Notes under the pieces: generated by a model
What the model was told of the DNA's origin: nothing
The model's input: only the letters and a program-made list of their open reading frames with translations
The model's database searches: none
Program-made: the position numbers and the translations under genes
NCBI GenBank assembly: GCA_001600455.1
Contig: BCKC01000008.1
Location: 1,337,345-1,401,344 of the forward strand
DNA: 64,000 nucleotides
Origin: Endocalyx cinctus
Taxonomy: Eukaryota > Ascomycota > Sordariomycetes > Amphisphaeriales > Apiosporaceae
Direction of reading: 5' to 3'
Part shown: piece after piece, positions 1 to 54,359 of the stretch
Position numbering within the stretch: the stretch's first letter is position 1
How the letters are laid out: the number at the start of each line of letters is the position of its first letter

Positions 1-622
1 GGATCAGCTGTAAAAGTTGCTGACGGACGAGGGCCCGGGAGGCGGCGAGGATAGGTAAGATGCGGTCACGGAATCGTTGCTTCTCATCTTCGGGTATCAG
101 GGGCTCGTCGGGATAGTGATCGCTTTTTGCCCATCCTTTATTCGTCCGATTCTTCAAATAGATCACGACTATATATATGGAAAAACAGCAATGTTAACAT
201 AAAAATGATTTGGTTATCTTGTTAAGGTTGGAGGGGTAATATCGAACGTACGCGATAATCGAACGGAGTCGTCATTCTCGTTGGTTACGATATCGAGAAG
301 AACATCGGTGAAGCCTGGGTGCGATTCGGCCTAAAGTTGGGGGAACATTAATACGAAATTCAGGATTAAAAGATGTCACTCAAATATATGTATATATAAA
401 TGTAACTTTTACGCCAGATTTTCACGGTTAAAAGACACGGTACAGATATCTTATGTTATAGAAACAATAATAGGAGCACTCGTATGCGTAAGGCAAGGTA
501 ACAAAAAATGGCGGTTCAGACCGATGACATACCTGTTTAAGCTCGAGTTCGGCAGCTCGTCGCACATTTGCATCAGGAGAAAGGGTGCCGACAACGCGAC
601 TCCTAATAGCCTCCGCATTCAT
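1..622 (-). CDS. Importin-beta family karyopherin (Sxm1/Nmd5 type), 5' part only
   Basis: Nuclear transport receptor; members of this importin-7/8-like branch bind RanGTP and carry cargo such as ribosomal proteins through the nuclear pore. Three exons are visible on the minus strand: 622-533, 330-252 and 168-1, joined in phase, with the gene running off the left edge. The first ATG (622-620) opens a 30-codon exon ending ELKQ before a GTATGT donor. The second exon holds PGFTDVLLDIV, and the third holds the importin N-terminal signature YLKNRTNKGW followed by the DEPLIPEDEK loop. This matches the N-terminal HEAT region of the Sxm1/Nmd5 group. Only about 110 residues of what is normally a protein of roughly 1,000 are present, so the assignment to one paralog is not certain. 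The upstream purine-rich, AT-rich stretch probably contains its leader. Confidence 0.85.
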
Positions 623-1620
623 GATCAACTCGAAATGATGTTTTTTTGAAGAGGATCAAAGGAAATAAAAGGATTGATATAAGTCAAGAAAAAGACGGGG
701 GGAAAAGAATAGAATAAATAATGGAAGGGGGGGAAAAGAAAGGTAGAGGAGGGAAGGGGAGTGGATGGGGGGGAAATTATGTGATCTGTAAAATGTTTAT
801 TTATCGTTTTATAATAGAATTAACAGAATAACAGAATCACAATAATAATCTATCCTGTCGTTTTTTTTCTTTTTCTTTTCTTTTAATACGAGGATAATGA
901 AAATTATTTTGTATTTTGTATAATATTTGATATGAAGCCCGTGGACCGGGTCAAATCAAGTGGGAGGAGGGGCAAATTTTTTTTTTTTTTAAAAAAAAAA
1001 TAGAGGGTAGTAATGTTTAAAGATTTGTATTGACAGTTCAAAATTGGTTTTGTTGGTGGTGAGTGAGGGTTCAGCTAAAAAAAAAAATAATTGTGGTGTA
1101 AATACGGAGTACGTCGCGCAGGTATACAAGCAGACAAGTAGGTAGAACCGTAGAAGGGGGGTTTAAAGTCGGTGGGGGGTTTTATTTAATAAGGGAAGCA
1201 AAGTACAACTACCTACTTAAGTACTTATACGCAAGTACTTAAGCATAGAGATAGGTACTCTCTCTTAAGCATAGTAGTGTAAAGTTTCGGTAGTATGTAG
1301 ATAGATTATTACCTATTTATCAAAGGCTACCACCTATTTTACTTATTTTACTTATTTCACTTATTTTACTTATTCTAAGTAGGTAGGCCTAATTCTAAAT
1401 ACTCACAATTATTATTGTTATTATGAACTAAAACGTGGCGTAATAGGTTAGGTTACTGAGAGAAGATTTATGGATTATGCACTATCAAATAAGAAAGAAA
1501 GTAAGGAAGAATATATACACGTATACGTGTATACATAAAATACATACCTAATCAAAATATTTACCTACGTACCTAGGTATATGTACGGAGTACTACAGTA
1601 AGTAAATACAGGAATCAATG

Positions 1621-2204: not shown

Positions 2205-4791
2205 TTAATGGAAACAGTTATGAATCCTTCATGAATCCATCCCTATTAGAATTCTTTTTACCTCTCCCACTCCTACCTTGTAAAACATCTTGATAGAAAC
2301 CGTTTACCCTTATGAGAGGAATAGCAATTAGAACAAAAACCAAGACAGTTGTATGTTATTTTTGGTAACTTAACCTCCCAAGTGTTTCATAGCAAACTAA
2401 CTTAAACAAAAAATAAATAAACAACGTGTGCTTGGGCTCTCAAAGTTATCGAAGTACATAACTCAAAATTCAACGCTGATCAGGCCAAGTAAATTTAACT
2501 ATCAGTTAAAGTATATTTTGTACTGCAGTATGGTTGATAATAAATAATTGTCAAAGCCAGAGAGGACAAAAAAAATAATAATAATAATAACCCAACATCC
2601 CAAGTACTCAACAAGTCAAAGACCAAACTTGCTTTCTTTTTCTCTCTTTCAACCACGTTAAACTGACGTAGGCATGCATAGATATGTAGGTAAAGTAGGC
2701 AGGTAGGGTATGCCTAAGTACGTATATTTCACGTACGCAACGCAACAACCCTTCTTCTACTTTTCTTTTCCCGTCTTGGATATTTTAAGAGGGCTAAAAT
2801 GCGGGGGGTTGTATGGTATGTATCACTAAAAGTGGTAATAGGGGAAGAAGAAAAAAAGAGGATTGATTTTGTGGCGGTTTCTAGGTCAACGTTGTCTAGA
2901 CAAACGAAACATCGTGAGCCGTCACTTCTTTTTTTTTTCTCTCTTCCTGCGGATCAGCCTCATATGAATGATAATAAATTTTTGAAGAAAATAATAATAA
3001 TATCGAACTCGGCCGCTTCCGTGTATTATTAGTCGGGAATTCCCCGAAAGGGGTATAGAAAAAAAAAGAAGAAAAAAAAAAACTCACCCTTATAAATGAC
3101 TCAGTAGATTATCCAAGACAATCAAACAACTACTAGAACCTATACCATCTTACCGTTATAGATCTGGTCTATCAACAATAACTAAATGAATATACCGCGT
3201 AAGCAACAGTAAACAGTAATATCTGGTAAAGAGACAAGTACACGTCAGACGAGCTTCCCAGTGAGACGCTCTTAAGAGTCATGCTGCCTAAACTTCTATA
3301 TGGACATGACTCAGAAATGAGAAGAATGCCTATGACCACAATAATCAGTATCAGCTCCCTTGGCGGTGATTATTTTGTCCACCGTAATGGCAGAGCCTTA
3401 CCGGTTCAAATCTTCAGGGGACATAATTCCGGGGTCGATTTCTACTTGACGAGCGAAAGCCGGTCAGACCTTCCGAGTATACTAGGGCCTCTTGTCCTAC
3501 CTCGAGCACATCTTACCTTACCCACGATAGTGGATAAACAACGCCGGCTCTAGTCTCCTTTGATCTTTTATCTCCTTACACACCGAGTATCGAACGAGCA
3601 AAAAGAGTAGACTAATTCCGACCAGCAAAAGCCGAAGGCTCGGATGTGAAACCTGAAAGCCCAGAGAGCTAAGCCGAAGAGGTGATTCTTTTTTTAAAGT
3701 AACATCCGTCTCGATGTCAACACATCCTTTGCATGTAAATAAGCAATCGAACCAGAAAATAGTGTCACGTCAAACATATAATTAACTAGGAGCACCGTTA
3801 AGAAGTGAGATTTCCATCAGTGTTGCCATTCGCTAGAAGTGTACCAAAATCGTCTTATCTCCCCAACATTGAGTTTACTAATACAATCTCCCAACTTCGT
3901 AAATTTCATGTTCCCAGAAACGCCTGTAGCAAATACAACCTAGAATCTCTGCACGACAGGAACTGTATCCCAGTCGTATCCATGCCAAACACCCGATATA
4001 AGATCGCTTCCAAAACCCGAAATACAAGAAGTCCATATGATAACATAGCTGCCTCCAATCGCCATTCCAGCCAGTAACGCATTCCCATTACTCTCCACCC
4101 ATTTCCTGTAACAGTCAGTATTCATGTCACTTTCCCGGCAGCTTTGGTAGTGAGCACGCAAATAGAGAACGTGGTTGTTGAGCGAAGTCCACGAGTGCGC
4201 CTCAAAATACTGGTTGGAGAAAGTAAAATGGAGATGGAATAGCAATCTCAGCCGTAGGGAAAACATAAGGACAGTGTGAAAGACAAGAAATATACAGGGT
4301 ATAAAGGAGCGGGACAAATAGCGAAGGTGCTGATTTGTAACAGTATAGGGGGAACGGATAGTGATAACATGCTACGGATGATACAATGAAAGGGAGGTCG
4401 GAGTGAAATAAACGAACAAAAATTAGGAGTTGAAAAGCAAAAAAGGAGAAAAATAACAAGGCGGTCGAAGGTTACTAACAAGTACAAGTGCCGGGTCCAT
4501 GTCTAGGTCCGGTGGATTGAAGTGCTAAAACAAGCTGCGGTCAAGCCGCATTATCCGTCGTATTCATCAAACTGAATTGTTATCAGGTTCTCATGTCCTT
4601 TGGAAGCCGTCCGTTATCCTGGCTTCGGTAGTGAACTGCGGACCTTGGTAGAATCCTATGGACATTTTGGTGTGGGTCCGTGATGTAAAAAACTGGGAAC
4701 TCTCACTTGGGGAGACCATATTCCTTGGAAATATCAATCCTTTAGGGTGAAGTTGCACGGGAGAGATCCGGGAGGCCGGCAGCAATCCGTT

Positions 4792-5858: not shown

Positions 5859-6506
5859 ATACCGGCCGTGGAACCATCAGAAAAAGATAAAACTCAGGAA
5901 ACTTGAAAAAACCAGGAAACCTCCCATTGGTGGGTCGGATCCGGACAGCAGGTCGATATGCATCATCCATAACGTAAAAAAATTAGAAAAGAAAATAAAT
6001 AAAACAAATAAATCAAAGCGTATTCTTCTTTTCGTGTAACCCGTATCCCGGAAAATATGGCGATAGATAAACCAGAACTTGCAAGGAAGCTATCGTGTAG
6101 CGTAATCATCAATCAAGTGGTACGGACCACATGCATGTCGTAAGTGAAGCGTCCAATGTAGCGCCGAATCCAATCTGGCTGTGAGAGTCATGTGCGTTTT
6201 GTGTCGTGAATAAACCATGAAATGGTAGAAGTGCGATGGTTGCTCCAGGCCAGAAGGTATTGGAAGTATGATACAATCAGTAGCGAGCTTGCAACTCTGC
6301 AAGTCACACTGTCCGGGAAATCCAATATCCTGGGTTTCTATCCTTCGGAGAAACAAAAATTCCAGATGTAATACCGTGACTTCTGTCGGTAAACAAGATC
6401 CGCAAATACGGTATCAAGCAAAATGATTAGGAAGAAGTAAATGGAGGGAAGAAGCTCTCCCAAACCTGCTAACTCCCGTCCAATGGCATAAATTGGTACG
6501 GTTGAA
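5859..6506. other. Intergenic, nothing identified
   Basis: Spacer between the membrane-span protein and the 3' end of the rfeG-like gene. Minus-strand reading frames at 6356-6090 and 6538-6338 are open, but the second overlaps the end of the rfeG-like coding sequence in another frame and neither shows a recognisable motif. Confidence 0.5.
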
Positions 6507-7891
6507 TCATCGACCTGAACGATGAGTGCGGTGTCCATGCCTGGATTCGGTGTGTCGATCTATGCTATCCCGCTCACGATCTCGTCGCGAGGATCCGCTA
6601 GATGTATGCTGCGTAGTTGACGTTGTCGTCGAGGTACGCGGGTGAGCAGAAGTCTCATATTGTTGATCTTGCGACGTAACGTACGGGGTTGTGCCTGCTG
6701 GTGACGCTAAGCAATCAGAAACATGTCAGCAAATCATTATCAAGGCCGTTGTGAGTACGCACCACGCCCATAGAATGGATCCGCAGGCTGCGTCACATAT
6801 TGAGCACTGGGAGGAGGTTGGTTCTGCGAGTAGTAGTTACCGCCAGCCCCGGTCGCCGGATACGTCTGAGCTGGGGAGCTTCCCGAGGTAGCAAATACGG
6901 TCCTGCTTGGTGCCATCGTGGTAACTGGTACTCCTCTGGAATCTCTGGGTATCGGGTCGTCTCTAGCGTCCCTGGCACCATACGGATCATTGCTATACAT
7001 GGACTGCGCATCTGGACGTGCCCTAGCATTTAAATTTGCATTAACAAGGGTATAAGGAGGTTCCTGGCCGGCCTGGCCATATCCTGCCGCGGGTACTGCG
7101 TGTCCCGATTGGAAGGCACTGCCAGAAGACGACGCAAACTGTCCTGGTTGCGCCGGGTAAGGTTGGCCATACGTGGGCGATGTCGTATACTGTTGATTGG
7201 GATACGAGTTAGACGCCCCTTGGTAGACTCCTGAACCAGTTCCCGGGTATCTTGGGGTCGCATCACTATAATGGTCTCTACTGCTATCCGCTGAGGCATA
7301 TCCAGTCTCAGCGGTCGGTCCGTAGTATTGACGCGACTGATGCGTGTCTGAATTGCGGTATTGGACTACAGGGGAGTTAGAGGACTTGACAAACGCGACG
7401 TTCGACTCTCGAGAGACGTGAGTACCTCCGGCGTTACTATTCCGACTCGCCGATTGCTGCCTCCTTTCTAAATCCCACCGCGCAGAATCCGCTTTTAAAT
7501 CCTCAATCATAGCCTAGCGGGGTTAAGACGATCGGGTCAGGTTAGCAAGCGACCTAAGGACAACGAAATCGACAAGGAACTCGCTGGACAGAGACTCACC
7601 GTTGTCAAATTACGATATGCGTTGATGAAGTAGCCCTGAATGATCTGGCCAGTCTGAGGGTTCTGTAAAGGAGTCGATCGTCAGCATCGAAGCCCAACCT
7701 GACACATATACCACAAAAGTCATCGTCAATCGCACCTCATAGTTTCCAGGTCGAACCAAAGCATCGTTTCCCAGATAGCGACATATGTCAGCCGTAATGA
7801 CTTCGCGATCGATGCCGTCTCGTGGTACGAAATACTCGTTTTGCCGACCCTGCTGAGGCACGGCGCTACTCGTTGGTGCTCTTCTCGACAT
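6507..7891 (-). CDS. rfeG: RfeG-like putative transcription factor
   Basis: Fungal protein of the family annotated as transcription factor RfeG; its biochemical role is poorly defined. Four exons on the minus strand: 7891-7736, 7662-7600, 7513-6763 and 6706-6507, giving 389 residues with all phases consistent. The conserved N-terminal block is intact: NEYFVPRDGIDREVITADI, CRYLGNDALVRPG, NPQTGQIIQGYFI, then AYRNLTTAMI-DLKADSARWD (residues about 18-90). The rest is low-complexity, rich in Ser, Gln, Tyr, Pro and Gly, and ends in an Arg/His/Ser-rich tail after residue 330. Such low-complexity tails suggest a nuclear, possibly phase-separating protein, which is inference. The start is the first ATG of the conserved block. 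Confidence 0.88.
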
Positions 7892-10800
7892 ATTGCGTAA
7901 ATACGTGGGAAGGTATTAAGTAAAAGAAGAGTAAAGGGAAAGGGTGAAGAAGTAATGTAAGAAAAAGAAAAGGGGAGAGAAGTCCGACCGGACAGTAGTA
8001 AGGAAGACAAAAAGTGATAGGGATAATAAAGAGAAGATGGTAAATGGTGAAAAAGGTCAGAAGGGATGTGTTGAGTAGAAGAAGAGGGTGGTGGGGGGGG
8101 AAGAAAAGGGCCAGGCAGGCTGGGAGACGGTTTGAAGGTGGGTCTTCCTAGATGGGTAAGACGGACGATTGGGGGGGAGTGATTGAACGAAATATTAACG
8201 AGTGAAAGAATGCCTGATGGGGTCGGCGGTAGCCAGAGAAAATTTTAGTCGGTATTCTATTCAGTGGGAGAAAGTGGCCCTCTCTTTTTTTTTTTTATTT
8301 CAGGCAACTGACAAGGCACAATGCCACAATCGCGCCACTTAGGTAGTTGGTCGAACAGGGATTATAGGTTTGCCTTCAGGGCCAATCCCCTAGACGGGTG
8401 GCAACTGTGACAGCGTGCGATGACGAATGATATGTAAAAGTAATAACAGACTTGGCGAAGACAGCGTAGTATTAACAAATGTGATTCCTCGCTTTTTTAA
8501 CTTAATCAGCTGGAATGTGATTCTCTTTTTTATTTTTATTATTATCAATTTGGACCAGTTAGGGGGGGGTGTCAGATGAGGTAGATATCAATTTGAAAGA
8601 GGGTGTATGTGTGTGAGTTGAAATTATCTATCAAAAAGAACCTCTCGTGGGGTTCATTCGGCCCACCGTTCGGTCAGGTAGAAAAATAAGAGAGAGAGAG
8701 AATAAGTACAAAGATACGTATCTAGCTATCGTCTATACTCATCCCAAAAAGAAAACCAATAGAGGCGGTTTTTGTGCCAAGGGCTAGTGGAGCAGTAACA
8801 CTGTAGGAGAGAATGCGTGGGAGTGTATGGTTGGTTGGGTATAAAAACCCTTATGCGAAGGCGATATTATTGTTGATACAAGTACCAAAAGCGAATCCAG
8901 TCGCACAGATGAGCAAGGAGCCTGGCTTAAGGTAGCACGGAGCCTGCAGGCTGCTAACAGAAGGGGACAGTCAGAATGTAGCGTAGTGTCTGACGCAGAA
9001 AATATGCAGGCTGATCAAAGCGGAAGAGTAAAAATGGATGTGAATTGGATAATATCGACGAATAAAAATGTATCGACGAGGTAGGAAAAAATGAGGGTCC
9101 AAACAGCTGGGAATGATCCCCCGTGGAACCGTTGCAGCCAAAAATACAAAAGGACTCAATAAAACTCCCTAAAATATTAAAATATAGAAGGTTTAAAGCC
9201 CCGCCGAGGAAAAACAGAAAGAAAAGTTAAAAGCCACAGGGCTACACAGGCCTGACAGGGTAAAGAAGTGGCTGTTAATTCCGATTCTATTCTGTTAAGG
9301 TATCTGCTATAGGCGGTGAAAAGAAGTAATGTTTCAGCGGTCAAGAACGTCTATAGCGGTGTGGCTTAGGCGTAAACTTTTAGGCTTACGAGAATTTGAT
9401 TATAGTTTGGGCACAGAAGAAACAATCATCAAAAAGACAACAAGGAACTTCCTTCTAAGAATTATCTCTATCACAAAATAGCGCTTGCAAAGTTTCAGAA
9501 TATTGTGTTTAGTCATGAATTTATCATATAACGGTGGTCGATCATCCGTATAATTTGAGCTTCCTCTAGGTCCTTTTATTCGGGTTTCTGGATATGTTCG
9601 TGGGATATCGATTATGTTGTCGGTCGAAAAAATATTTAACGAGCCAATTAGTTTTTGTAAGGATATCTTTTCGGTGGTCCAGTCTGCCAGTGTAATACGA
9701 TTTTACTTATTTAGCTTTGTAAACTCGAAACACGCTTTAATGGAGAAGACACCTTTAACATAGACAAAAACATACAATTATCCCAGATAGTATATATAAA
9801 AGAAAGCCAGGTATATGTCTATACGTGTATCCATCGTCTTAACACTCTTTACTAGCGACACGATACTATTCAACTGGCAGACTGGGAGACTGGGCAGCTG
9901 GGTTGGGTTGTACGTGTTCAGACGTAGCACCTGGTACTTGCTTGCTTCCTGACCACTTTACTCGGTCATTGTGTTCTAGTTGTAGTCGCCCAATGCTTTT
10001 ACTAAACATTTAATGATACTGTACCTTGTGATTCAAGGGATTTCCTTGCAAATAAGAGCGAGAGAAAGAGAGAACGAGAGAAAAAAAAAAAACGAAAGGG
10101 AGAGAAAGAGAGAGCTGATTATTGTAGAAGCGAGCCATTAATCTTATCCCATTCATCTATCTCAATCCCTCATTTCTGCTAGATTCATCTCATTTGACAT
10201 CACTTATCACGGAGGCGTATTGATAGAAACCAATTAATAATGTTAGTTTACGTATCGCCGTCCAGCCGATGTTGAAGATGGTGAAACGATTCAATAATCA
10301 TCGAAAGAAAGAAAATTGGAGTCCATTAGTTTTTCGTCCCGCTCGAAACCAAAAGAGCACTAATTCTGCTTTGGGTGAGGTTGGGTATCAATGCACCTAA
10401 GCCTAGTTGCTAAAAAATCTNTTGTTGGGCAAAAAAAAAAAAAAAAAAAACTTGAAGGTCGGGCATCAGCCAATGATATCTTAAGACATTCATTCTGTGA
10501 CCATTCTGGTTTTTTCCAAGATTGAAAGTCGTGAGACCGTGAGACTTTAACCCATTAAGAGTAAAAAAAAAAAAAAAAAAAGGTACATTCTGAACATAAA
10601 AGAGAATCACGATTGGAATGGAAATTGTATTAATGCGACTTGTCCTTATGAAGCTGTAAGCTATCATATGTCCTGTACATAAGATAGCTTGCAGAACGGG
10701 TACCGGCCGCAGAAGCATGAAGCCGACAGATCTAGTTCACCCCTTCAAGACAAATATCATATATGTAGGCTTTGAATTCGTCGTATTTTTAAGCTTTATT

Positions 10801-26270: not shown

Positions 26271-27598
26271 CTAACCCTGAGGATTACCATTGAATGCCAA
26301 GAGATTCGGTGTGCCGTCTGGCAGACCCATTAATTTGTTTTTGATGGCAATCTCCTTAATACGATCACCCAGTTCCTGCGGTGTTCTCTTCCCTTCTAGG
26401 GTTAATAGGTACGCCGCGAGTCCCGCTACCAAGGGACTCAATGACGAAGTCCCATCCAGGATTCCCTAATTTTCCTGTCAGTTTCATGACGCAAGCAGAT
26501 ACGATTGGTAATACTGGAAAAAAAAAAAGAAAAGAAAAAGAAACACAACTTACAAGACCACCCGAAGGAGAAGGGCCTACGACGTTGACGCCAGGGGCAA
26601 AAATATCCACCGCTTCGCCGTAATTACTGAAAGAGGCGATCGTATCATTCATGTCGATGGCACCGACCGTGCACACCGTCGGCTCGGAAGCAGGAGAGAC
26701 GTCGCTAGCGTTCGCGTGAGAATTCCCCGCCGCCACCGCGACGAATACGCCCGCGCCGACCAAGCTCGCGGCCGCGTCGTTCATGGCCTGCAGGACGCCG
26801 TCGTTGCTGCTGAGGGACAGGTTCGCTACCGTCCCGTTCGGACAGCTCCGCGTGCGGACGTCCTGCTCCACGAAGTTCATGCCGGCGATGATGGTCGAGC
26901 TGTTCGCGAAGTTGGTTTCGGCGAAGATCCGGACGCTGAACAGCGACGTCTTCTTCGCGACGCCCCACGTGCTCCCGCCGATCTGGGCGGCCACGAAGGT
27001 GCCGTGGCCGGTCACGTCGGTCCCGTTTCCGCCGGCGAAGTCTTGCAGCAAGGTCACTCGGCCGCCGAATTCGGGGAGGTTCCCGGCTATGCCGCTGTCG
27101 ATGACGTACGAACATGTGCCCTCGCCTCCGGAATCGTCGTACGTATAGGTGTTGTTTATCGCGACGTTGTGAGAAATCCTAGCCAGACTCCAGGGCGCAC
27201 TAGTCTGTGTTAGGTACGTGCTAAGATATACTCTGGAATCCTGCTCGACGTATTCGACCTGATACATGAGTCAAAATACGTTTGTTGTTTAGGAAGTGAT
27301 GTTTTCTTACCTGTGGAAGATTGAGAATGGACTGGAGTCCCTCAGTGCTTAGTACACTGGTAAACCCCCTGAAACGCGAGCCGGTGTACACACGACTGGT
27401 ATTGGTTGCGTACATTTTAAGAGCCTCATAGAACTCCGAGCTAGTGGTGTTATCTCTAAACTTGACAATATACGCATCAGGAATGAGATCCGAACTTCGT
27501 ACACTTTGAAAGACCGGAGCAGGCTCACCATGTGTCCTCGTATATTTCGCAGAGGCCACAATTGTCAGATAAGTCATCAGTACTTGGATTGAGTACAT
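26271..27598 (-). CDS. Secreted subtilisin-like serine protease (proteinase K type, S8)
   Basis: Extracellular endopeptidase. Three exons: 27598-27311, 27258-26554 and 26465-26271, 395 residues, all introns between codons. The first 16-17 residues form a signal peptide, followed by an I9 propeptide (about 40-100; YIVKFRDNT, RGFTSVLS) ending near YVEQD. The catalytic domain carries D150 (YVIDSGI), H181 (GHGT), the oxyanion Asn N275 (VAAGNSHANA) and S338 (DGTSSLSP). Two positions that are nearly invariant in the family are changed: GHGTH is GHGTF, and GTSMA-x-PH is GTSSLSPL. The triad itself is kept, so activity is possible but specificity may be altered. The middle exon is much richer in G+C than its flanks. 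The 52-nt first intron separates propeptide strands. Confidence 0.93.
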
Positions 27599-30500
27599 CT
27601 TGTCTTTGTCTAGAGGTCTTCGTTTAAACTATACTTACTCAGCTCCATGATGTCGATCCCTCCATCGCCGTGGCAAATAAAACTGTTCCAAGTCATATTT
27701 ATACCAGGGAAGATCCTAGGAGCTATCGTTACGCCAAAACGGTCAGGTGTTAATTGATCTAGATAGAAGTTCATAGCCCAGTCTAGATTTCCTTGGCAGA
27801 GAGATCTGGTAACAACGTCACGCAGGTACCGGAGCCAAAGCTTTGGGTAATAAGCCATGTGCATCATATCATCGTGCCTTATATTTCAGGGCTGTAAGAT
27901 TCACGTCGCACTTAAAGGCTCCGCCGGTTGTATGCATACTCGAAATGATTCAGGTACCTGTCGGTATACGTGTAAGCAAAGATACACGTGACCATATCTG
28001 GTGCTCCGAGGTTGTTCTTCGGCACACGGAGCAAGTTTTGACTTCTATTACTTTCAATATAAATCTCTGCTTATATCTAAAAATAATTTTTTTACGGCCG
28101 TCAGGGATTTATTAATTCCTACTTTGGCATGTTTTCAACGTAGTCCGGGCATGTCCGAAATACTGCTCGGCGGTATTAAACAAGGGTGGCTATATCAGGT
28201 AGGATGACTTAATCCTTTTTTCCCCCATAACAACCTCCGTAAATTCGAGCTTCGTGACAGGTTGAGATATTTTCTGAGCTGTTTACACCTTGAAATAGTG
28301 ATACAAACTTACCTCCAAACAATCATGATTCAGATGACCTACAATGGTATGGAGGTGTTATTAACGATGATGCAATTCTACACGATGATCCAGGATGCGA
28401 TACCGTTGTGGTTTCGACGTGCGAATTTTTCATGTCTCTTTTACCCGTTAGATCAAGGGGTGGATGTGCTCAGCTCCGCACGTTTCCAGTCTCTAGTTAA
28501 GGAGACCGAAACATTTTCCGGCATCGCCGCGGGATTTTCGGGAGATAGTTTTAACGTATACGTGGCACTAAGAAAGGTTCTTAATATCAGATTATTGCTT
28601 TGTACTTGACGTTTCGTTCTTTCCACAGTAGAGGGATTGAGTATCGCCGTAATCGTGATTCGACGAGTATCGATTAGGTGGATGGTACGACATAGTGCAT
28701 CGTTGGTATAGCGATGTACACTCTTCATAGGTATCGAATATCTATTGTATCGCTTCTTTTAACGTAGATAATCATTCATGTGTATGGGAATGAGTCGAGA
28801 ATTGGGATACGTGCGGAAATGCCAGTCTGGGGATCTACACAAAACAATATATTAGCAAAAGAAAAACCCACAGGTATTCAAGTATGTATACAGCCATTAG
28901 TCTCCTAGATGATCAATCGATTTACCTAAAAAAATAAAAATAAAAATAGAGTAGGATACAATAGAAATAAATCACACGAGTAAACGAGAAGGGTTATTTC
29001 CGAGGTTACCGTTAAAATTTTTATAATTGGTCTTTTTGCCTAATCTTGATCGCCAGGTAAGGTACTTCTTACTTACTTAGGTACTAGATTACCTATGATA
29101 CATAAGTATACTACAGTACTTAAGTACCTAGGTAGTTGCCTGGGTAGTGCTGTATGTACCTAGGTAATACTTTAGTAGGTTAGATAATTGACCGGTTGAG
29201 ATCCGCTAGCTCCCCGAATTTTACTGGGTCTAGCCGGAGCAAAATTGACTTCAGCCCTCGGCTGCCCCCGAACACTATACGGCAGATATTCTGGCCCAAT
29301 TAAAACTATTCAATACAATTATAAACGTTTATTTATATATATATTATTTCTTTTTTTATCTTGCTATTTTTTTTTCGGGGGGCCTTTCAACAATACTATT
29401 AATTATGCACTTTTGCACACTTCAAACCATGTCACTTCTCCCGCTTCAATCCAACATTCTACCTGGATATCGGTGGGAAAAAGAAAACGAAATCGATCTT
29501 AGAAATAACTAGTTTCGTAGGATAATTAGATCTGTAAATAATGTATCTGATTCCGTTTACTTGTTTATCCCTAATAGTATTCAGACCCAATTTTCTGGAG
29601 CAGGGAGTACCTTACGGGTAGTTTCTGAAATATAATAGTTGCTTGAAATGCCCAATGCTATAGAAACATATAAATTTCTAAAACGAGCATAATAATTTAT
29701 AGAAGGACAGAAGTGTAAGCACTGAAATTGCAAGGACCTGGACACAAATATCACCGTAATGCCCGAAATACTTGCTTGATAGAGGCACGTTCCGATACTG
29801 TGCTAAGAAAATAATAAACATTACTATGCATATGGTTATATCTTAATAGGTAAATGTATTGTACGTGTCATACTTTTCGAATAGAAGACTCACTTCAAGT
29901 TATCTCCATAGCCTTCAGTCATCCTTTACTCTCCTAATGAACCAGATACTGAAAAATTGTATAACTAGTTAGATCTTACGATCGTATACATCGAGATTGG
30001 TCATGGAGTTTCCCTTCTGCCTGCAAAATTGTTGTATTAGAATAAATAAAAGGTGAATATTGAACTTGAAGCTTTCTTCTTTTTTGTTTCTTTCTCTTAT
30101 ATGTTATATGTCATGTTATTTAGATCTCTAGAGTATTATTGTTATCAATTGATATATCTGCATGCTTAGAAGCACCTATGACCTATCCAGCATGAAGCTA
30201 TAGATATATTCTTGGAATACTTGAAATGAGAGTCTCCTAAAGCTAATTTATGACCAATCTAGATTACTCTATCTTGTACGGGCTGAATATGAGTAGAGAA
30301 ATTGTACGTGTACCTGGGTAGTTTCTCTAAGCTGTCTATAGCATCTCCTTGTATCATTGTTACTTAATATGATTACATCACCGAAATAAATATTTCAGCT
30401 TATGGGAGTGATGCTGCACATGTAACTTCTTGGTGATGATAGGCAATGTACGGTAATCATCTTTTAGAGATCAGACTACCCATTTGGGAGTCGTTCCTAA

Positions 30501-49254: not shown

Positions 49255-50070
49255 CTACGAATTAGATTTATTCTCTTGCTCTTTCAATAGCTCTCTTCCT
49301 CTTAGTACAATACGCGCATTCTCTATCAGGGGGTCTTCTCCTTCGCCATTAACAGCAAGATACGTCATGAACGCGCTCAACTCATCCAACTGAACACACC
49401 ATTCATCGCCCATTACTTTGGCAAAAATACCAAGGCCGATCATTTTCGCCATTACAACTCCTCCCGGCTTAACGACAAAAGTCTTCCATGCGACGGGATG
49501 TTTGTCTGCGAAGGCAAGAGCTTTGGTCTCCATGAGTCCCTAAGTTATGGTTTAGTTCTGTGCATGTAAAAAGGGAGCCGATATACTCAACCGAATCATA
49601 CCTTCAATTTCCTTGGCTTGCTTCCCCACCATAGTCTCATCTCTTGATCCTGACGTACGAATTTCCCGCTCAACAGAACAAATCTTAGGGGGGCACTTCT
49701 AGGTTTGCTTTCCAATACTTTTCCCATGCTTTCTACAAAGGCCAGGGGGTATTCATAGTCGGCTTGGACATTCCCAGTGTATGACCCAATATTCCTTCAA
49801 ACGCGGTATTAGTAGAGTATTATTTTATCTCATTGTAGGTCAAACATACCAAACCATAGCGTCCGCGTCCGCGTGTGCTTGCAATACATCTTCTGGCCAT
49901 TTAGAAAAATCCTTGATCAAGACACATTCAATCTTCGGATGCTTAGATATATCGCTAGGTAAGTCCCGCCGCCCAAAAGAAACGACTTTGGTCACGCTGG
50001 GATGGGCGAGGCAGTGATTGAGGACACCACCTCCAATAGATCCACTTGCGCCGGTGATGAGGATTTTCAT
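49255..50070 (-). CDS. NAD(P)-binding Rossmann-fold oxidoreductase (atypical SDR, epimerase-like)
   Basis: Three exons: 50070-49850, 49794-49602 and 49539-49255, 232 residues, phases consistent. The first residues MKILITGASGSIGGGVL contain the TGxxGxxG dinucleotide-binding loop of atypical short-chain dehydrogenases; VVSFGRRDLP follows strand 2. The middle exon carries the family block LRFVLLSGKFVRQDQ, and the third begins GLMETKALAFA, the region after the active site. The canonical YxxxK is not evident, as in many of these atypical members. It is on the same strand as, and 0.9 kb downstream of, the tandem-repeat precursor gene at 50972-51466, so it could be a tailoring reductase (inference). 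Confidence 0.82.
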
Positions 50071-50971
50071 GGTGATAGGTCAATCGAATCAAGTAGGCAG
50101 TTAGAAATTAGCAAGAATTATTTGAAATTGAAACAGATAAGATATGTGAAATTAGGCTCGGGATCAAAAATAAAGCTGGAGCAGCTTGCGAATATAATAT
50201 ACATGGCGGCGGAAATTTCGAGCGCAGGGGCTGTGGGATTTGGGCGAAGTTTGGCGGATTTTGAAAGTAAGTCATGCATGCATAGCGGACTTGAAAGTCC
50301 ACCACGCCGTTTGCTGAGTTGCTAAGACAATCGCCATCATCTCGTTAATAATACAGCTAATTGTGATTCTTAGTAAGGACGACTAAACACTTCGGGGTTT
50401 GACAAGTGATAAAACCATCACTAGGCAAAGTCCGAAATTGAACCCATTTTTCTTAAGAACAAGCTACTGGGCTAAATACGATCACTTTAAGTTAATACTC
50501 CGTACAGCAAACAGAAATACTTTAGACAACTCGGTAGATATTACGTCTTGGCAATATATCACGTTAGATGAAAGAGACTTCAATAATAAGGGGCTCGGGA
50601 TTCGATTCAATAACATTAAAACGAGAGGCTATATTGGAGTGCAGTATTTTTGCAACCCGGATCCCAAAATCTTCCCCGTACACGTTGCTATTCCTAGAAG
50701 ATGTTACGCCGAAACATCAACGTCCCTTAACGGGTTCCTATCATGAGACCCCAGAGCCCTCAGAATAATAGCTTTCTTCTATAGCGAGCGTTGACCCGTG
50801 CACGAAACTAACCATTTACTGATGAATCGTCACTGTGATGGAACAGGTGATGTCAGTAAAAAGAAAAATCACTTGCTTATATAGCCAATGAGTGGAGGAG
50901 AGGAATGGCGGTTTTATGTATACTTACGAGTCCTATAAGTAACCCACATCTTGCTCAGACTAGCTCACCGC
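50071..50971. other. Intergenic, nothing identified
   Basis: Lies between the reductase start and the 3' end of the repeat precursor gene, both on the minus strand. Plus-strand frame 50399-50746 is open but shows no motif. Confidence 0.5.
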
Positions 50972-51466
50972 TTAAATTTGGGCATTTTCACGACCAAGCG
51001 ATCCATCGCGGTTGAGAGCCCGGGCATTCACGCCGCCTTGGATTTCATCATCATGGGCATTGCAGCGGGCGCTAAGGCCCTCCGGGGCATCGTTATGCAT
51101 GTTGCAACGAGCGTTGACGCCTCCGCGGAAGTTGCTCTTCGAAGTTTTACGAGCATTCGCGCCGGCTGGCGATTCGGCGTGAAGGTTGTCGCGGGCGTTA
51201 ACGCCGCCGAGGGTGTTGTCATGCTCCGCCGAGTCCATAGCCATCGCGTTTTCCTGCTCCTCCGTCGAATCGATCATGTCGCGAGCGTTGACACCGCCCG
51301 CGGCAGCGTCGTTGTGCATGCCGCAGCGAGCGTTGATTTCGCTTGAGGCGGCATGATCGTGCATGTTGCAGCGAGCGTTGACGCCTCCGGGGGTTTTATC
51401 GATGGACTGGGAGGGGAGGGCAAGGGCGGTGCCGAGGAGGGTGATGAGAGCTACGGTGCACTTCAT
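50972..51466 (-). CDS. Secreted tandem-repeat protein, candidate RiPP precursor (164 aa)
   Basis: Single exon. Residues 1-17 (MKCTVALITLLGTALAL) form a clear signal peptide. From residue 27 to the end the protein is ten units of 14-15 residues starting at 27, 42, 57, 72, 87, 101, 115, 129, 144 and 158. The consensus opening is GGVNAR, kept exactly in units 1, 3, 5, 7 and 9; units 2, 4, 6, 8 and 10 are variants (SEINAR, ENAMAM, AGANAR, EGLSAR, GRENAQ). Units 1, 2, 7 and 8 continue with C-[NG]-[MA]-H and acidic residues. A signal peptide plus tandem short repeats is the layout of fungal ribosomal peptide (dikaritin) precursors and of Kex2-processed repeat effectors. Dibasic Lys-Arg sites are absent, so processing would have to be at Asn-Ala-Arg or another site. 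A UstYa oxidase gene lies 1.9 kb away, divergently. Confidence 0.8.
   Translation of the reverse strand: MKCTVALITLLGTALALPSQSIDKTPGGVNARCNMHDHAASSEINARCGMHNDAAAGGVNARDMIDSTEEQENAMAMDSAEHDNTLGGVNARDNLHAESPAGANARKTSKSNFRGGVNARCNMHNDAPEGLSARCNAHDDEIQGGVNARALNRDGSLGRENAQI
50975..51388 (-). repeat. In-frame coding minisatellite, 42-45 bp period, ten units
   Basis: DNA counterpart of the protein repeats in the precursor gene. Unit length alternates between 42 and 45 bp, always a multiple of three. The tract is GC-rich, and the coding constraint appears in that the Asn-Ala-Arg core is kept while the spacers vary. Confidence 0.85.
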
Positions 51467-53367
51467 TTTGTCGTTTTTGGGCTTACTTTTGACTTGGGGA
51501 ATAAAAAAGCTCTTTGCGTGCAGGCAAGATTTTCTTAAACTTTATAATGGGTTGGGGTTTGTCGAATAAGTAGAGTGTAAGTTGTTACTGTTGTTCTAGT
51601 ACTTAGATTTATCACGGGAGGTTATGATAGTTTTATAGTCGATAGCTTCATATTTGAGATCTAATATTTGCTCATGACGCAGCTATGAAGATCTATTCTT
51701 TTCCCTCGTCGGTATGTGTGATTTTGCTGTTACATGGCCGCGTACGGGAGTAGTGTACATCGTTTGCAAATGTAGATGCAGACTATTTCTCTTGCCATCA
51801 CTTCCATACAGACAGATATCTACCAAGCAAGGAGAGGGCGCTTGTACCATATATTGTTGGAGGATAGTAATATCGTCAAACATGATCTTGGTTTAACCAG
51901 CTCACACGTTGAACCCAGTCCACACCATGGCCTCTTAAACTTACTGGCATATATGTTAATTCATACAAGCTCGGCACTTCGTTATGGGTCGTTTATTTCC
52001 ATGGATATTGGTTGATTTTCTTTTGTTTAAGTTGCATATATAGTTGGTTATGGTGTTCACGAGATGTTCCACAAGATGAGGCCATTTCACCGAATAATGG
52101 TATCATGGTCTAGGCTCTAAGCTCATAGGCCACCTTCATATATGATCACATGGGTATCACATGGGTCAGAGGCTAGTGTAATCTGGGGAATTGGGACCAT
52201 GAAGCCGGTAGTCCCGGTAGTGTAACCTATAGGCAAGATTCTTCGGAACTATCACGGTCGATATCCACGGTAGCAGTACAACTTCGAACCTCTTCAAGGA
52301 AGCTATACCAATAATGTCTTATACCTAGGATACACTTGGTTTCTACTGCTCTTATCTAAGTTGAATCTCCAAACCAGTCTAGGCGTACAGTTCTCTTTAG
52401 GGAAGGGAGTTGTGACGTCAAAATAACCACTATACGCGTAAGAGTGACAAGATACTGGGAATATGATTTATCTCTGAAATCAGAAGCTAATTGAGAAAGT
52501 TGAGAATTCGGGTTGTCTTACCACTACATTTTCACCTATGTCTTCCTTGTATCTAGGTCTCTAGTGGAAGGTTTACATCTGTTCGAGACGACCATATTAG
52601 TCATCCCTGACAGTCGCAGGGGCTACACCAATTTTGAATAGTTTTGAAAAGCTGTCTATGGTAAACTGGTGTAGATGTCGCTGTTTTATAAATGTTCTTA
52701 CATGAAGCGAGGGTCGCGGCGCCGCGTTTGGTATCAGATAAGGATAACAGTTTTATCTCGAGTCGCCACTTGCTCGATTCTGAAGTGCCGCGCCTATCTT
52801 ATAAGTTTGGCGTATGAAAAGGGATGGGACTTGCAGCAGAATCAGCGAACAGAAGCAGTAATAAATGGGAGTTAAGGGGCATTTCCAATGTGTTCTCATG
52901 ATCAATTTTCAAAAATAGTTTGTGCCTACAGCTAAAGCGTACTCATCTGATTTAGTCCAGTTGGTGAGATTAAGCGAAATGGGGTAGCGTTTATAGTCAG
53001 GGACATCATATCTACACGAGAGCATTATTTGAATAGTGTAGTGAATAGAAAGCTATGATCACGCGCCTTCACACCCTCCAAGCTGAAAGTTAGAGAATAA
53101 CGGCAATGCTCCATTAGTTTTGCGAGCGGGTTTGACTTCATTGCCGTAAGGGATGTGATCTTTCTCTTCGCATCGGTACGTAGATGCCGACTAGGTGTCT
53201 ACTCGGTTTGGATTGCTATACTTTAACTAGATCCCTCGACTGGTTTCAATTTTCATCTCGGAGAGAAGTATTTGAATTGAGTCTGAAGATCTTTCATTTC
53301 TTTCTTAGCATCGATCAGGGCCCAACACACTATCTCTCCAAGTTCCTCGATTAACCTAAATATCAGA
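51467..53367. other. Divergent intergenic region between precursor and UstYa genes
   Basis: About 1.9 kb, AT-rich. It should contain the promoters of both genes and is the place to seek a shared regulator site. I see no further enzyme or precursor gene; the frames at 51714-51896 and 52675-52875 lack motifs. Confidence 0.5.
51541..51546 (-). promoter_or_regulatory. Probable TATA box of the repeat precursor gene
   Basis: TATAAA on the minus strand, about 75 bp upstream of the precursor ATG at 51466, in a suitable position for a fungal core promoter with a short leader. Confidence 0.45.
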
Positions 53368-54359
53368 ATGTCCAACTCAGAAAAGAAATATTCCCGCCTT
53401 ATAGACGCGGAAGAAGAGTCACTCTCCTTTATCACCCAAGAGCAGGAAGAATGCCAATGCCAGCACCACCACCGCATATCCAGTCGTCATCATTACAAGC
53501 TTTTGATTGTTCCCTGGACCACGACATTCGTGTTTATTGGCTTTAGCTTGTATCTTCTATTCCTTCTTAGTTGGATGCCCGTACGGCTCGGTCCCTTCAA
53601 CACCGACCTCGCGGACGCCCGGGGCGCCGTCTCTTATGACGAACATAGCTTCTCGGGCCAGCTGGGTTGGGATGACGAGAAGGAGATCATCTATCGCGGA
53701 CTGGAGCCAGGCGAGCCACGGTATTTTGGCGAGCCCGAAGAGAGTATTGATTTGGCGTGGGAAGAGTTGTTAAGAGGTAAATATCTATCTTCCCATAGCC
53801 AACTCTTATAATTTACTTTGATGAAACGCCGATTGACTTCTCCTAGGTAAATTCATGTTTATGAACGAAGACGAGGTAGCCGAGTACATGGCCCCTGACT
53901 TAAAGATGTACGATGATGGAAAGTACTATTTCACGTGAGTCCAAGCAAGCAGCTCCCCATCAACCCATTTCTCCCTCCATAACCAGCTTACCGACTTCGA
54001 CGCGTCACCTCAGGCCCGAGATGTTCCACTCTCTCCACTGCCTAAACGTCATCAGGATGACGCTCGACTCGTCGTACTACGCCCTTCAGCCCACGCGACA
54101 CCGGCACGGTAACATGAGCCAGTACCTCCTCCACCAAGACGACTGGGAAAGGATCCACAGAGATCACTGTCTAGATCAGATCCGGCAGTCGATCCAGTGT
54201 TTCGGGGACCTGAGCCCCGTGCCCGTCTACGAGTGGGGCGGGATCCCCGTCGGGGTCGGGGTCGGAAGGACGCATACCTGCCGGAAGTTGGAGCCTATCC
54301 GGGAGTGGATGTTCGGCAGGGGTCGGGAAGGGGGGCTGCAGTTGCAGGAGCAGTGGTAA
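53368..54359 (+). CDS. UstYa-type oxidase (DUF3328), candidate RiPP-modifying enzyme
   Basis: Membrane-anchored oxidase family whose members UstYa/UstYb cyclise or oxidise dikaritin peptides. Three exons: 53368-53776, 53847-53934 and 54014-54359, 280 residues, phases consistent. A cytosolic N-terminus of about 45 residues with a His-rich stretch (CQCQHHHR) precedes one membrane helix at 46-69 (VFIGFSLYLLFLLSW). The luminal domain carries both catalytic metal-binding signatures: HSLHC (171-175) and HRDHC (214-218), followed by LDQIRQSIQCFGD, the usual family context. The tail is Gly/Val-rich with a basic end. The last exon is GC-rich. It is transcribed away from the tandem-repeat precursor gene and is followed by ATP12. 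Similar genes also occur outside peptide clusters, so its partner is inferred from position. Confidence 0.92.

Follow-up and report, generated by a model that had tools for sequence, protein, structure and literature searches.

A probable secreted peptide precursor with single-arginine sites beside a UstYa gene in Endocalyx cinctus

The window analysed here, a stretch of 64,000 nucleotides from the fungus Endocalyx cinctus, carries a single-exon gene for a small, putatively secreted repeat protein, divergently oriented to an intact gene of the UstYa (DUF3328) family (Table 1). A first-pass annotation made from the sequence had pointed to a secreted repeat ORF at this place, and it is real: its location, its length and its predicted signal peptide hold, and its repeats lie beyond every shuffle. 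The self-similarity of the encoded protein is 80 for the best diagonal and 337 for the five best, versus maxima of 66 and 183 in 1000 same-residue shuffles, and NAR or SAR occurs 8 times, whereas 20,000 shuffles average 0.34 and never exceed 4. The raw self-similarity score is unspecific, as an antisense frame of low complexity, rich in Arg and Pro and running from 55173 on the plus strand of the window, reaches 93 for the best diagonal against the 80 of the precursor. The signal peptide is presumably cleaved after A-L-A, as predicted by the -3,-1 rule. The gene is single copy in a search of the genome, and TRF detects part of its array only (51281-51382, period 45).

Table 1. Features of the window (window coordinates) and precursors at the other UstYa loci (positions by locus)
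Feature	Position	Strand	Description
Precursor ORF	50972..51466	minus	single-exon, 164 aa; secreted repeat precursor (ORF list, unit and codon listing, shuffle and codon tests)
Predicted signal peptide MKCTVALITLLGTALA	51419..51466	minus	from sequence; passes hydropathy filter
Repeat region, residues 27-164	50975..51388	minus	eight [NS]AR and two degenerate sites
Divergent intergenic region, precursor to UstYa	51467..53367		1.9 kb; from gene coordinates
UstYa (DUF3328) family gene	53368..54359	plus	exons 53368-53776, 53847-53934, 54014-54359; 280 aa
NAD(P)-binding (Rossmann) gene pieces, nearest gene on the other side of precursor	49258..50070	minus	Pfam matches below curated cut-offs on first exon; exons by eye
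L017 precursor	405-727		dibasic, DVADAFKR
L020 precursor	2856-3153		mixed: VAPR and KK; repeat DNDEIWLW
L032 precursor	ORF start 2424	minus	canonical KR; repeated APLIYGYGYDKR units beside UstYa; partly reads N
L037 precursor	7191-7482		mixed: ITAR, LMR, one RR
L039 precursor	3087-2820	minus	dibasic: KR, RR
L042 precursor	7216-7454		dibasic: KR
L044 (= L002) precursor	6368-6672		dibasic: KR
L048 precursor	7939-8265		no KR/RR/KK; EIDAR/VLQANYSADEYDTPDVAPR/VLQANYSADDYE
L049 (= L013) precursor	7382-7753		no KR/RR/KK; GEDGIVAR/NPQCTYSAEDYD...GEDGVVAR/NPQCTYGAADYD

Cut after each [NS]AR, the precursor falls into a 32-residue first part, from the signal peptide to PGGVNAR, and pieces of 15, 15, 30, 14, 14, 14 and 15 residues that end in SEINAR, GGVNAR, GGVNAR, AGANAR, GGVNAR, GLSAR and GGVNAR; a final piece then follows that ends in ENAQI, a degenerate unit, and the 30-residue piece consists of two units joined at a degenerate ENAM. 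The ten units first counted are therefore eight clear, Arg-terminated ones, seven with NAR and one with SAR, plus two that are degenerate, and the unit size of 14-15 residues is borne out. KR, RR and KK are absent, so that the reported lack of Lys-Arg stands, with the correction that one basic pair is present, an Arg-Lys at NAR/KTSK. Aromatic residues after the signal peptide amount to one Phe, with no Tyr and no Trp. The five exact GGVNAR copies differ pairwise by one to five bases, and the six variable DNA columns are all third codon positions, which indicates that the peptide and not the DNA is conserved, as expected under peptide selection. An antisense frame of 135 open codons (50939-51343, plus strand) runs across the precursor and probably results from the codon usage of the latter. 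Repeated words after a single Arg prove nothing by themselves, since a scan for them is also positive elsewhere in the window, in frames of low complexity or other kinds (from 26940 and 55173, plus; from 48724, minus), and antisense to the precursor. Over the remaining 59 kb or so of the window, a separate scan for internal repeats returned weak rows with at most 4 word hits, compared with 17 for the precursor; these rows and the antisense frame with the higher best diagonal are too few for a background rate.

A regular array of this kind could belong to a secreted protein that is never cut, whether wall-associated, metal-binding through C-x-M-H, or folded as a beta-solenoid. Such a protein would fit the lack of KR, RR or KK between units, the Cys, Met and His within them, and a single-sequence AlphaFold2 model in which eight short strands recur at roughly the repeat spacing, but the model (mean pLDDT 52.7, pTM 0.43) is too poor to be trusted, large hydrophobic residues are scarce in the mature part while Ala, Asn, Gly, Asp and Ser abound, and the strictest residues of the array form a protease-like motif. 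We consider an uncut protein quite unlikely.

The UstYa gene is recognised by its last-exon ORF (Pfam UstYa, E 1.7e-23), the first exon falling below the cut-off. In the three-exon gene model two HXXHC motifs are found, HSLHC at residue 171 and HRDHC at 214, and the N-terminus contains what appears by eye to be a hydrophobic helix. The 25 homologs retrieved all carry PF11807; the best, from Xylariaceae sp. FL1651, is 56% identical, followed by two more from Xylariales and then by proteins from Aspergillus, Penicillium and other or unnamed sources. A PDB sequence search with the last exon gave weak matches only, the best (E 0.033) to a ribosomal protein, and these were disregarded; an AlphaFold model of the UstYa homolog P0001 has a mean pLDDT of 58.1 and is, like that of the precursor, of too low a quality to be compared with known folds.

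The idea that the repeat protein is the precursor of a ribosomally synthesised and modified peptide (RiPP) had been tied to linkage with a UstYa gene, and at this locus the linkage is found, UstYa being the next gene found, 1.9 kb away. From the 31 UstYa loci in 44.76 Mb of genome, the chance of a UstYa gene lying this close to the precursor is about 0.3-0.4%. The region between the two genes is a possible shared promoter. On the other side of the precursor, the later pieces of the NAD(P)-binding gene have no Pfam match, and it is uncertain whether that gene belongs to the cluster; a GNAT acetyltransferase gene also lies on that side, and ATP12 and EFR3 genes lie past UstYa. Among the window ORF pieces scanned against Pfam, which are a part of the ORFs, there is no tyrosinase, P450, RiPP-type methyltransferase or transporter, and the precursor and UstYa look like a minimal two-gene locus. 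A subtilase gene (Peptidase_S8, E 1.8e-18) lies about 24 kb from the precursor, at 26368-27628 on the minus strand, and we found no reason for a link.

Homology searches with the precursor itself returned 555 candidates, none at E <= 0.01 or even E <= 10; these E-values are for 5.8 billion sequences, and as short repetitive proteins also score poorly, the missing homologs are weak evidence. The same database does contain fungal proteins, as the UstYa matches attest. Pfam, NCBIfam and PDB sequence searches with the precursor gave no match, nor did GGVNAR in a literature search confined to papers open without subscription; among the literature matches listed, within the same scope, we recognised no monobasic or otherwise non-canonical dikaritin precursor.

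The genome itself offers a wider comparison. A PF11807 search of the whole assembly gave at least 48 exon matches, which were merged within 10 kb to define the loci. The flanks were read at 19 loci with about 3.5-5 kb or more per side (the window, L032-L043 and L044-L049; less for L033) and at 12 loci with 1.5 kb, and scans for internal repeats revealed a secreted repeat ORF at no fewer than 10 of the 31 (the window, L017, L020, L032, L037, L039, L042, L044, L048 and L049). Seven of the ten precursors have KR, RR or KK among their repeats. The remaining three, those of the window, L048 and L049, have none, and show a single Arg ahead of the repeated segment, mostly as [V/I]-x-[A/P]-R. In eight of the ten the signal-peptide exon and the repeats may be separated by a GT-AG intron (61-87 bases in the first-listed models); the reading frames of the window gene and L032 run through without one. 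The L048 and L049 precursors resemble that of the window in being secreted, UstYa-linked and devoid of KR, RR and KK, with [VI]-x-[AP]-R ahead of what is repeated; unlike it, each has two exons, two repeats and a pair of UstYa genes, and their cores, VLQANY and NPQCTY, contain Tyr.

These loci bear on whether the peptides are modified at all, since a repeat protein could be processed by the Golgi kexin Kex2 and release its peptides unmodified, for linear signalling or defence, with the nearby UstYa serving some other purpose. Among 7878 Kex2-processed repeat proteins (KEPs) surveyed, 22% have a DUF3328 neighbour, so that most do not (PMC7329392), and the window repeats are devoid of Tyr, which is the cyclised residue of ustiloxins, phomopsins and asperipin-2a. 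Yet UstYa is adjacent here, nine other UstYa loci of the same genome have comparable precursors, and Tyr is also absent from the repeats of L017 (DVADAF), L020 (DNDEIWLW), L037 and L042 (DPD and Phe). Release of unmodified peptides is, in our estimate, unlikely.

The kinship of the UstYa genes gives a mixed picture of how the three loci without KR, RR or KK are related. In tblastn against the fetched loci, the window UstYa best matches a UstYa of L048 (identical with the L007 gene), then L046 (= L005), then L049, so that of its three best paralogs two neighbour precursors lacking these pairs. In a tree of 31 of 39 stitched gene pieces, kept by coverage, and 7 of the 25 homologs, the window UstYa falls among proteins of Xylariales, Aspergillus and Penicillium, apart from the genes of L048 and L049. 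The latter, two at each locus, pair mutually, by which the two clusters look like old duplicates. All five UstYa genes of the three loci come together as a clade in 24% of 200 bootstrap replicates. The absence of KR, RR and KK maps onto the tree with two changes, a number as low being reached in 20 of 500 shuffles, a result aided by the paired duplicates. The three loci may or may not share one origin.

All eight [NS]AR sites of the window precursor have Ala at P2 and an aliphatic residue at P4 (V, I, V, V, A, V, L, V), these sites being repeats and hence not independent; as background, among the long ORFs of the fetched DNA, Val, Ile or Leu stands at P4 in 25% of 95 AR sites and 12% of 67 PR sites. 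Kex2 is described as favouring Leu or another aliphatic residue at P4 and Arg at P1 with a variable P2, although a figure legend of the same source leaves Ala outside its five top-ranked alternative P2 residues (PMC8528282), and AR, ER and PR are also cut by Kex2p at lower efficiency (PMC13404059). By these accounts all eight positions have the sequence of an extended Kex2 site, with Arg at P1, an aliphatic P4 and a tolerated P2. Other published material points the same way: homologs of the K74 killer toxin have a monobasic, LKAR-type site in 12 cases versus a dibasic one in 20 (PMC13211469), and KEPs expressed in Pichia gave peptides apparently ending at a single Arg (PMC9769878). Just after cut sites, acidic and small residues (Ala, Val, Leu) are over-represented and basic ones under-represented (PMC2515848); the residues that follow Arg in the window precursor are C, C, D, D, K, C, C and A, of the favoured kinds in three of eight cases and Lys in one. 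Some single-Arg sites of the comparison precursors fit poorly, namely TCAR, twice in L049, KLMR in L037, and IDAR in L048, with its unfavourable Asp at P3. For the window, L048 and L049 we favour a monobasic Kex2 site, as published Kex2 specificity allows Ala or Pro at P2 and an aliphatic residue at P4. Cleavage after a single Arg, one of several options first put forward, has become likelier with the two further precursors and this specificity.

The cutting enzyme could still be another one, such as a monobasic aspartyl protease of the yapsin type, and a monobasic-specific yapsin is indeed cited (PMC2515848). The aliphatic P4, however, agrees with the preference of Kex2 (PMC8528282), and Kex2 alone would then suffice for the dibasic as well as the monobasic precursors in this genome, which leaves a different enzyme very unlikely. 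The kexin P domain, PF01483, matches at one place in the genome only, with two neighbouring matches on contig C5 that we take for a single gene interrupted by an intron.

In the segments that follow the Arg, five of eight are of a [CD][NG][MLA]H type (CNMH, CGMH, DNLH, CNMH and CNAH), and three, DMID, KTSK and ALNR, are unrelated. The order in L048 and L049 is Arg, a short segment (VLQANY or NPQCTY), then small and acidic residues. The conserved part of the unit is presumably the recognition sequence. By analogy with these two precursors the CNMH-type segment would be the core; the early proposal that the released peptide is what follows NAR is supported by this analogy only. The segment contains no Tyr, Trp or Phe. 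Tyr occurs in 65.6% of the repeats of DUF3328-linked KEPs, and two abundant types have di-His (PMC7329392), so that about a third lack Tyr and a Tyr-free core is less common but not unheard of.

Taken together, the observations make it probable that the gene encodes a multi-core, dikaritin-type ribosomal peptide precursor, cut by Kex2 at monobasic sites and modified by UstYa in its core. The signal peptide would route the precursor into the secretory pathway, where Kex2 in the Golgi may cut after the Arg of [V/I/L/A]-x-A-R, the aliphatic P4 compensating for the missing basic P2, and the carboxypeptidase Kex1 would remove the terminal Arg. The oxidase encoded next door, probably membrane-anchored, may then modify the post-Arg segment, most plausibly C/D-N-M-H. 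Candidate segments between the NAR arginines are CNMHNDAPEGLSA(R), CGMHNDAAAGGVNA(R), CNAHDDEIQGGVNA(R) and CNMHDHAASSEINA(R). The residues that UstYa would link are, like any bioactivity of the product, a matter of inference. More tentative, and on balance doubtful, is the combined proposal that monobasic [V/I/L]-x-[A/P]-R precursors make up a sizeable share of UstYa loci (3 of 10 here), invisible to dibasic surveys, and that the window UstYa links or desaturates non-Tyr residues of a Cys-Asn-Met-His core. If single-Arg precursors exist, the number and chemistry of fungal RiPPs would be underestimated; the KEP survey of PMC7329392 requires dibasic sites, and such precursors would be absent from its counts. 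A Tyr-free precursor beside UstYa also raises the question of what UstYa enzymes can do to Cys, His, Asn or Met.

Among known systems, the closest are the dikaritins and the DUF3328-linked KEPs, with which the window shares a signal peptide, tandem units of similar size (typically 13 residues for ustiloxin, 14 for phomopsin and 8 for asperipin-2a; PMC7329392) and a UstYa gene beside the precursor. A DUF3328/UstYa gene with two HXXHC motifs is class-defining for dikaritins (PMC12048977), and the locus has such a gene, together with repeated core units behind a signal peptide, the latter by hydropathy only. Dikaritin units are described as separated by dibasic KR, RR or KK (PMC9769878), sites that the window precursor lacks. 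The locus is therefore dikaritin-type by the enzyme-based definition and not by the dibasic one, and the new class once suggested gives way to a dikaritin architecture and neighbour enzyme with a different cleavage site, single-Arg [VILA]-x-A-R instead of KR, RR or KK, and different core residues, C/D-N-M-H without Tyr. What we call new relative to the dikaritins is a UstYa-linked multi-core precursor whose sites are monobasic and which is nearly free of aromatic residues. Nearly all ust-RiPS precursors of Aspergillus carry Kex2 sites (PMC6339444), a wording under which a few exceptions may already be known. KEPs are defined by at least three repeats of at least 8 residues between KR, KK, RK or RR (PMC7329392), and the window precursor, with its single RK pair, falls outside. 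Alpha-pheromone precursors combine KR sites with Ste13 dipeptides that follow them (PMC6339444), and here there is no KR and the post-Arg segments start with CN, CG, DM, DN, KT, CN, CN and AL. Monobasic Kex2 sites are known from the killer toxins K1, K2 and K28, from K74 homologs and from effectors with an LxxR pro-domain, which, like the window sites, have Arg at P1 and a non-basic P2, and the aliphatic P4 is likewise common to the window and the LxxR and LKAR sites. In the toxins and pro-domain effectors, however, these sites are boundaries, whereas the window motif punctuates the repeats of a UstYa-linked precursor.
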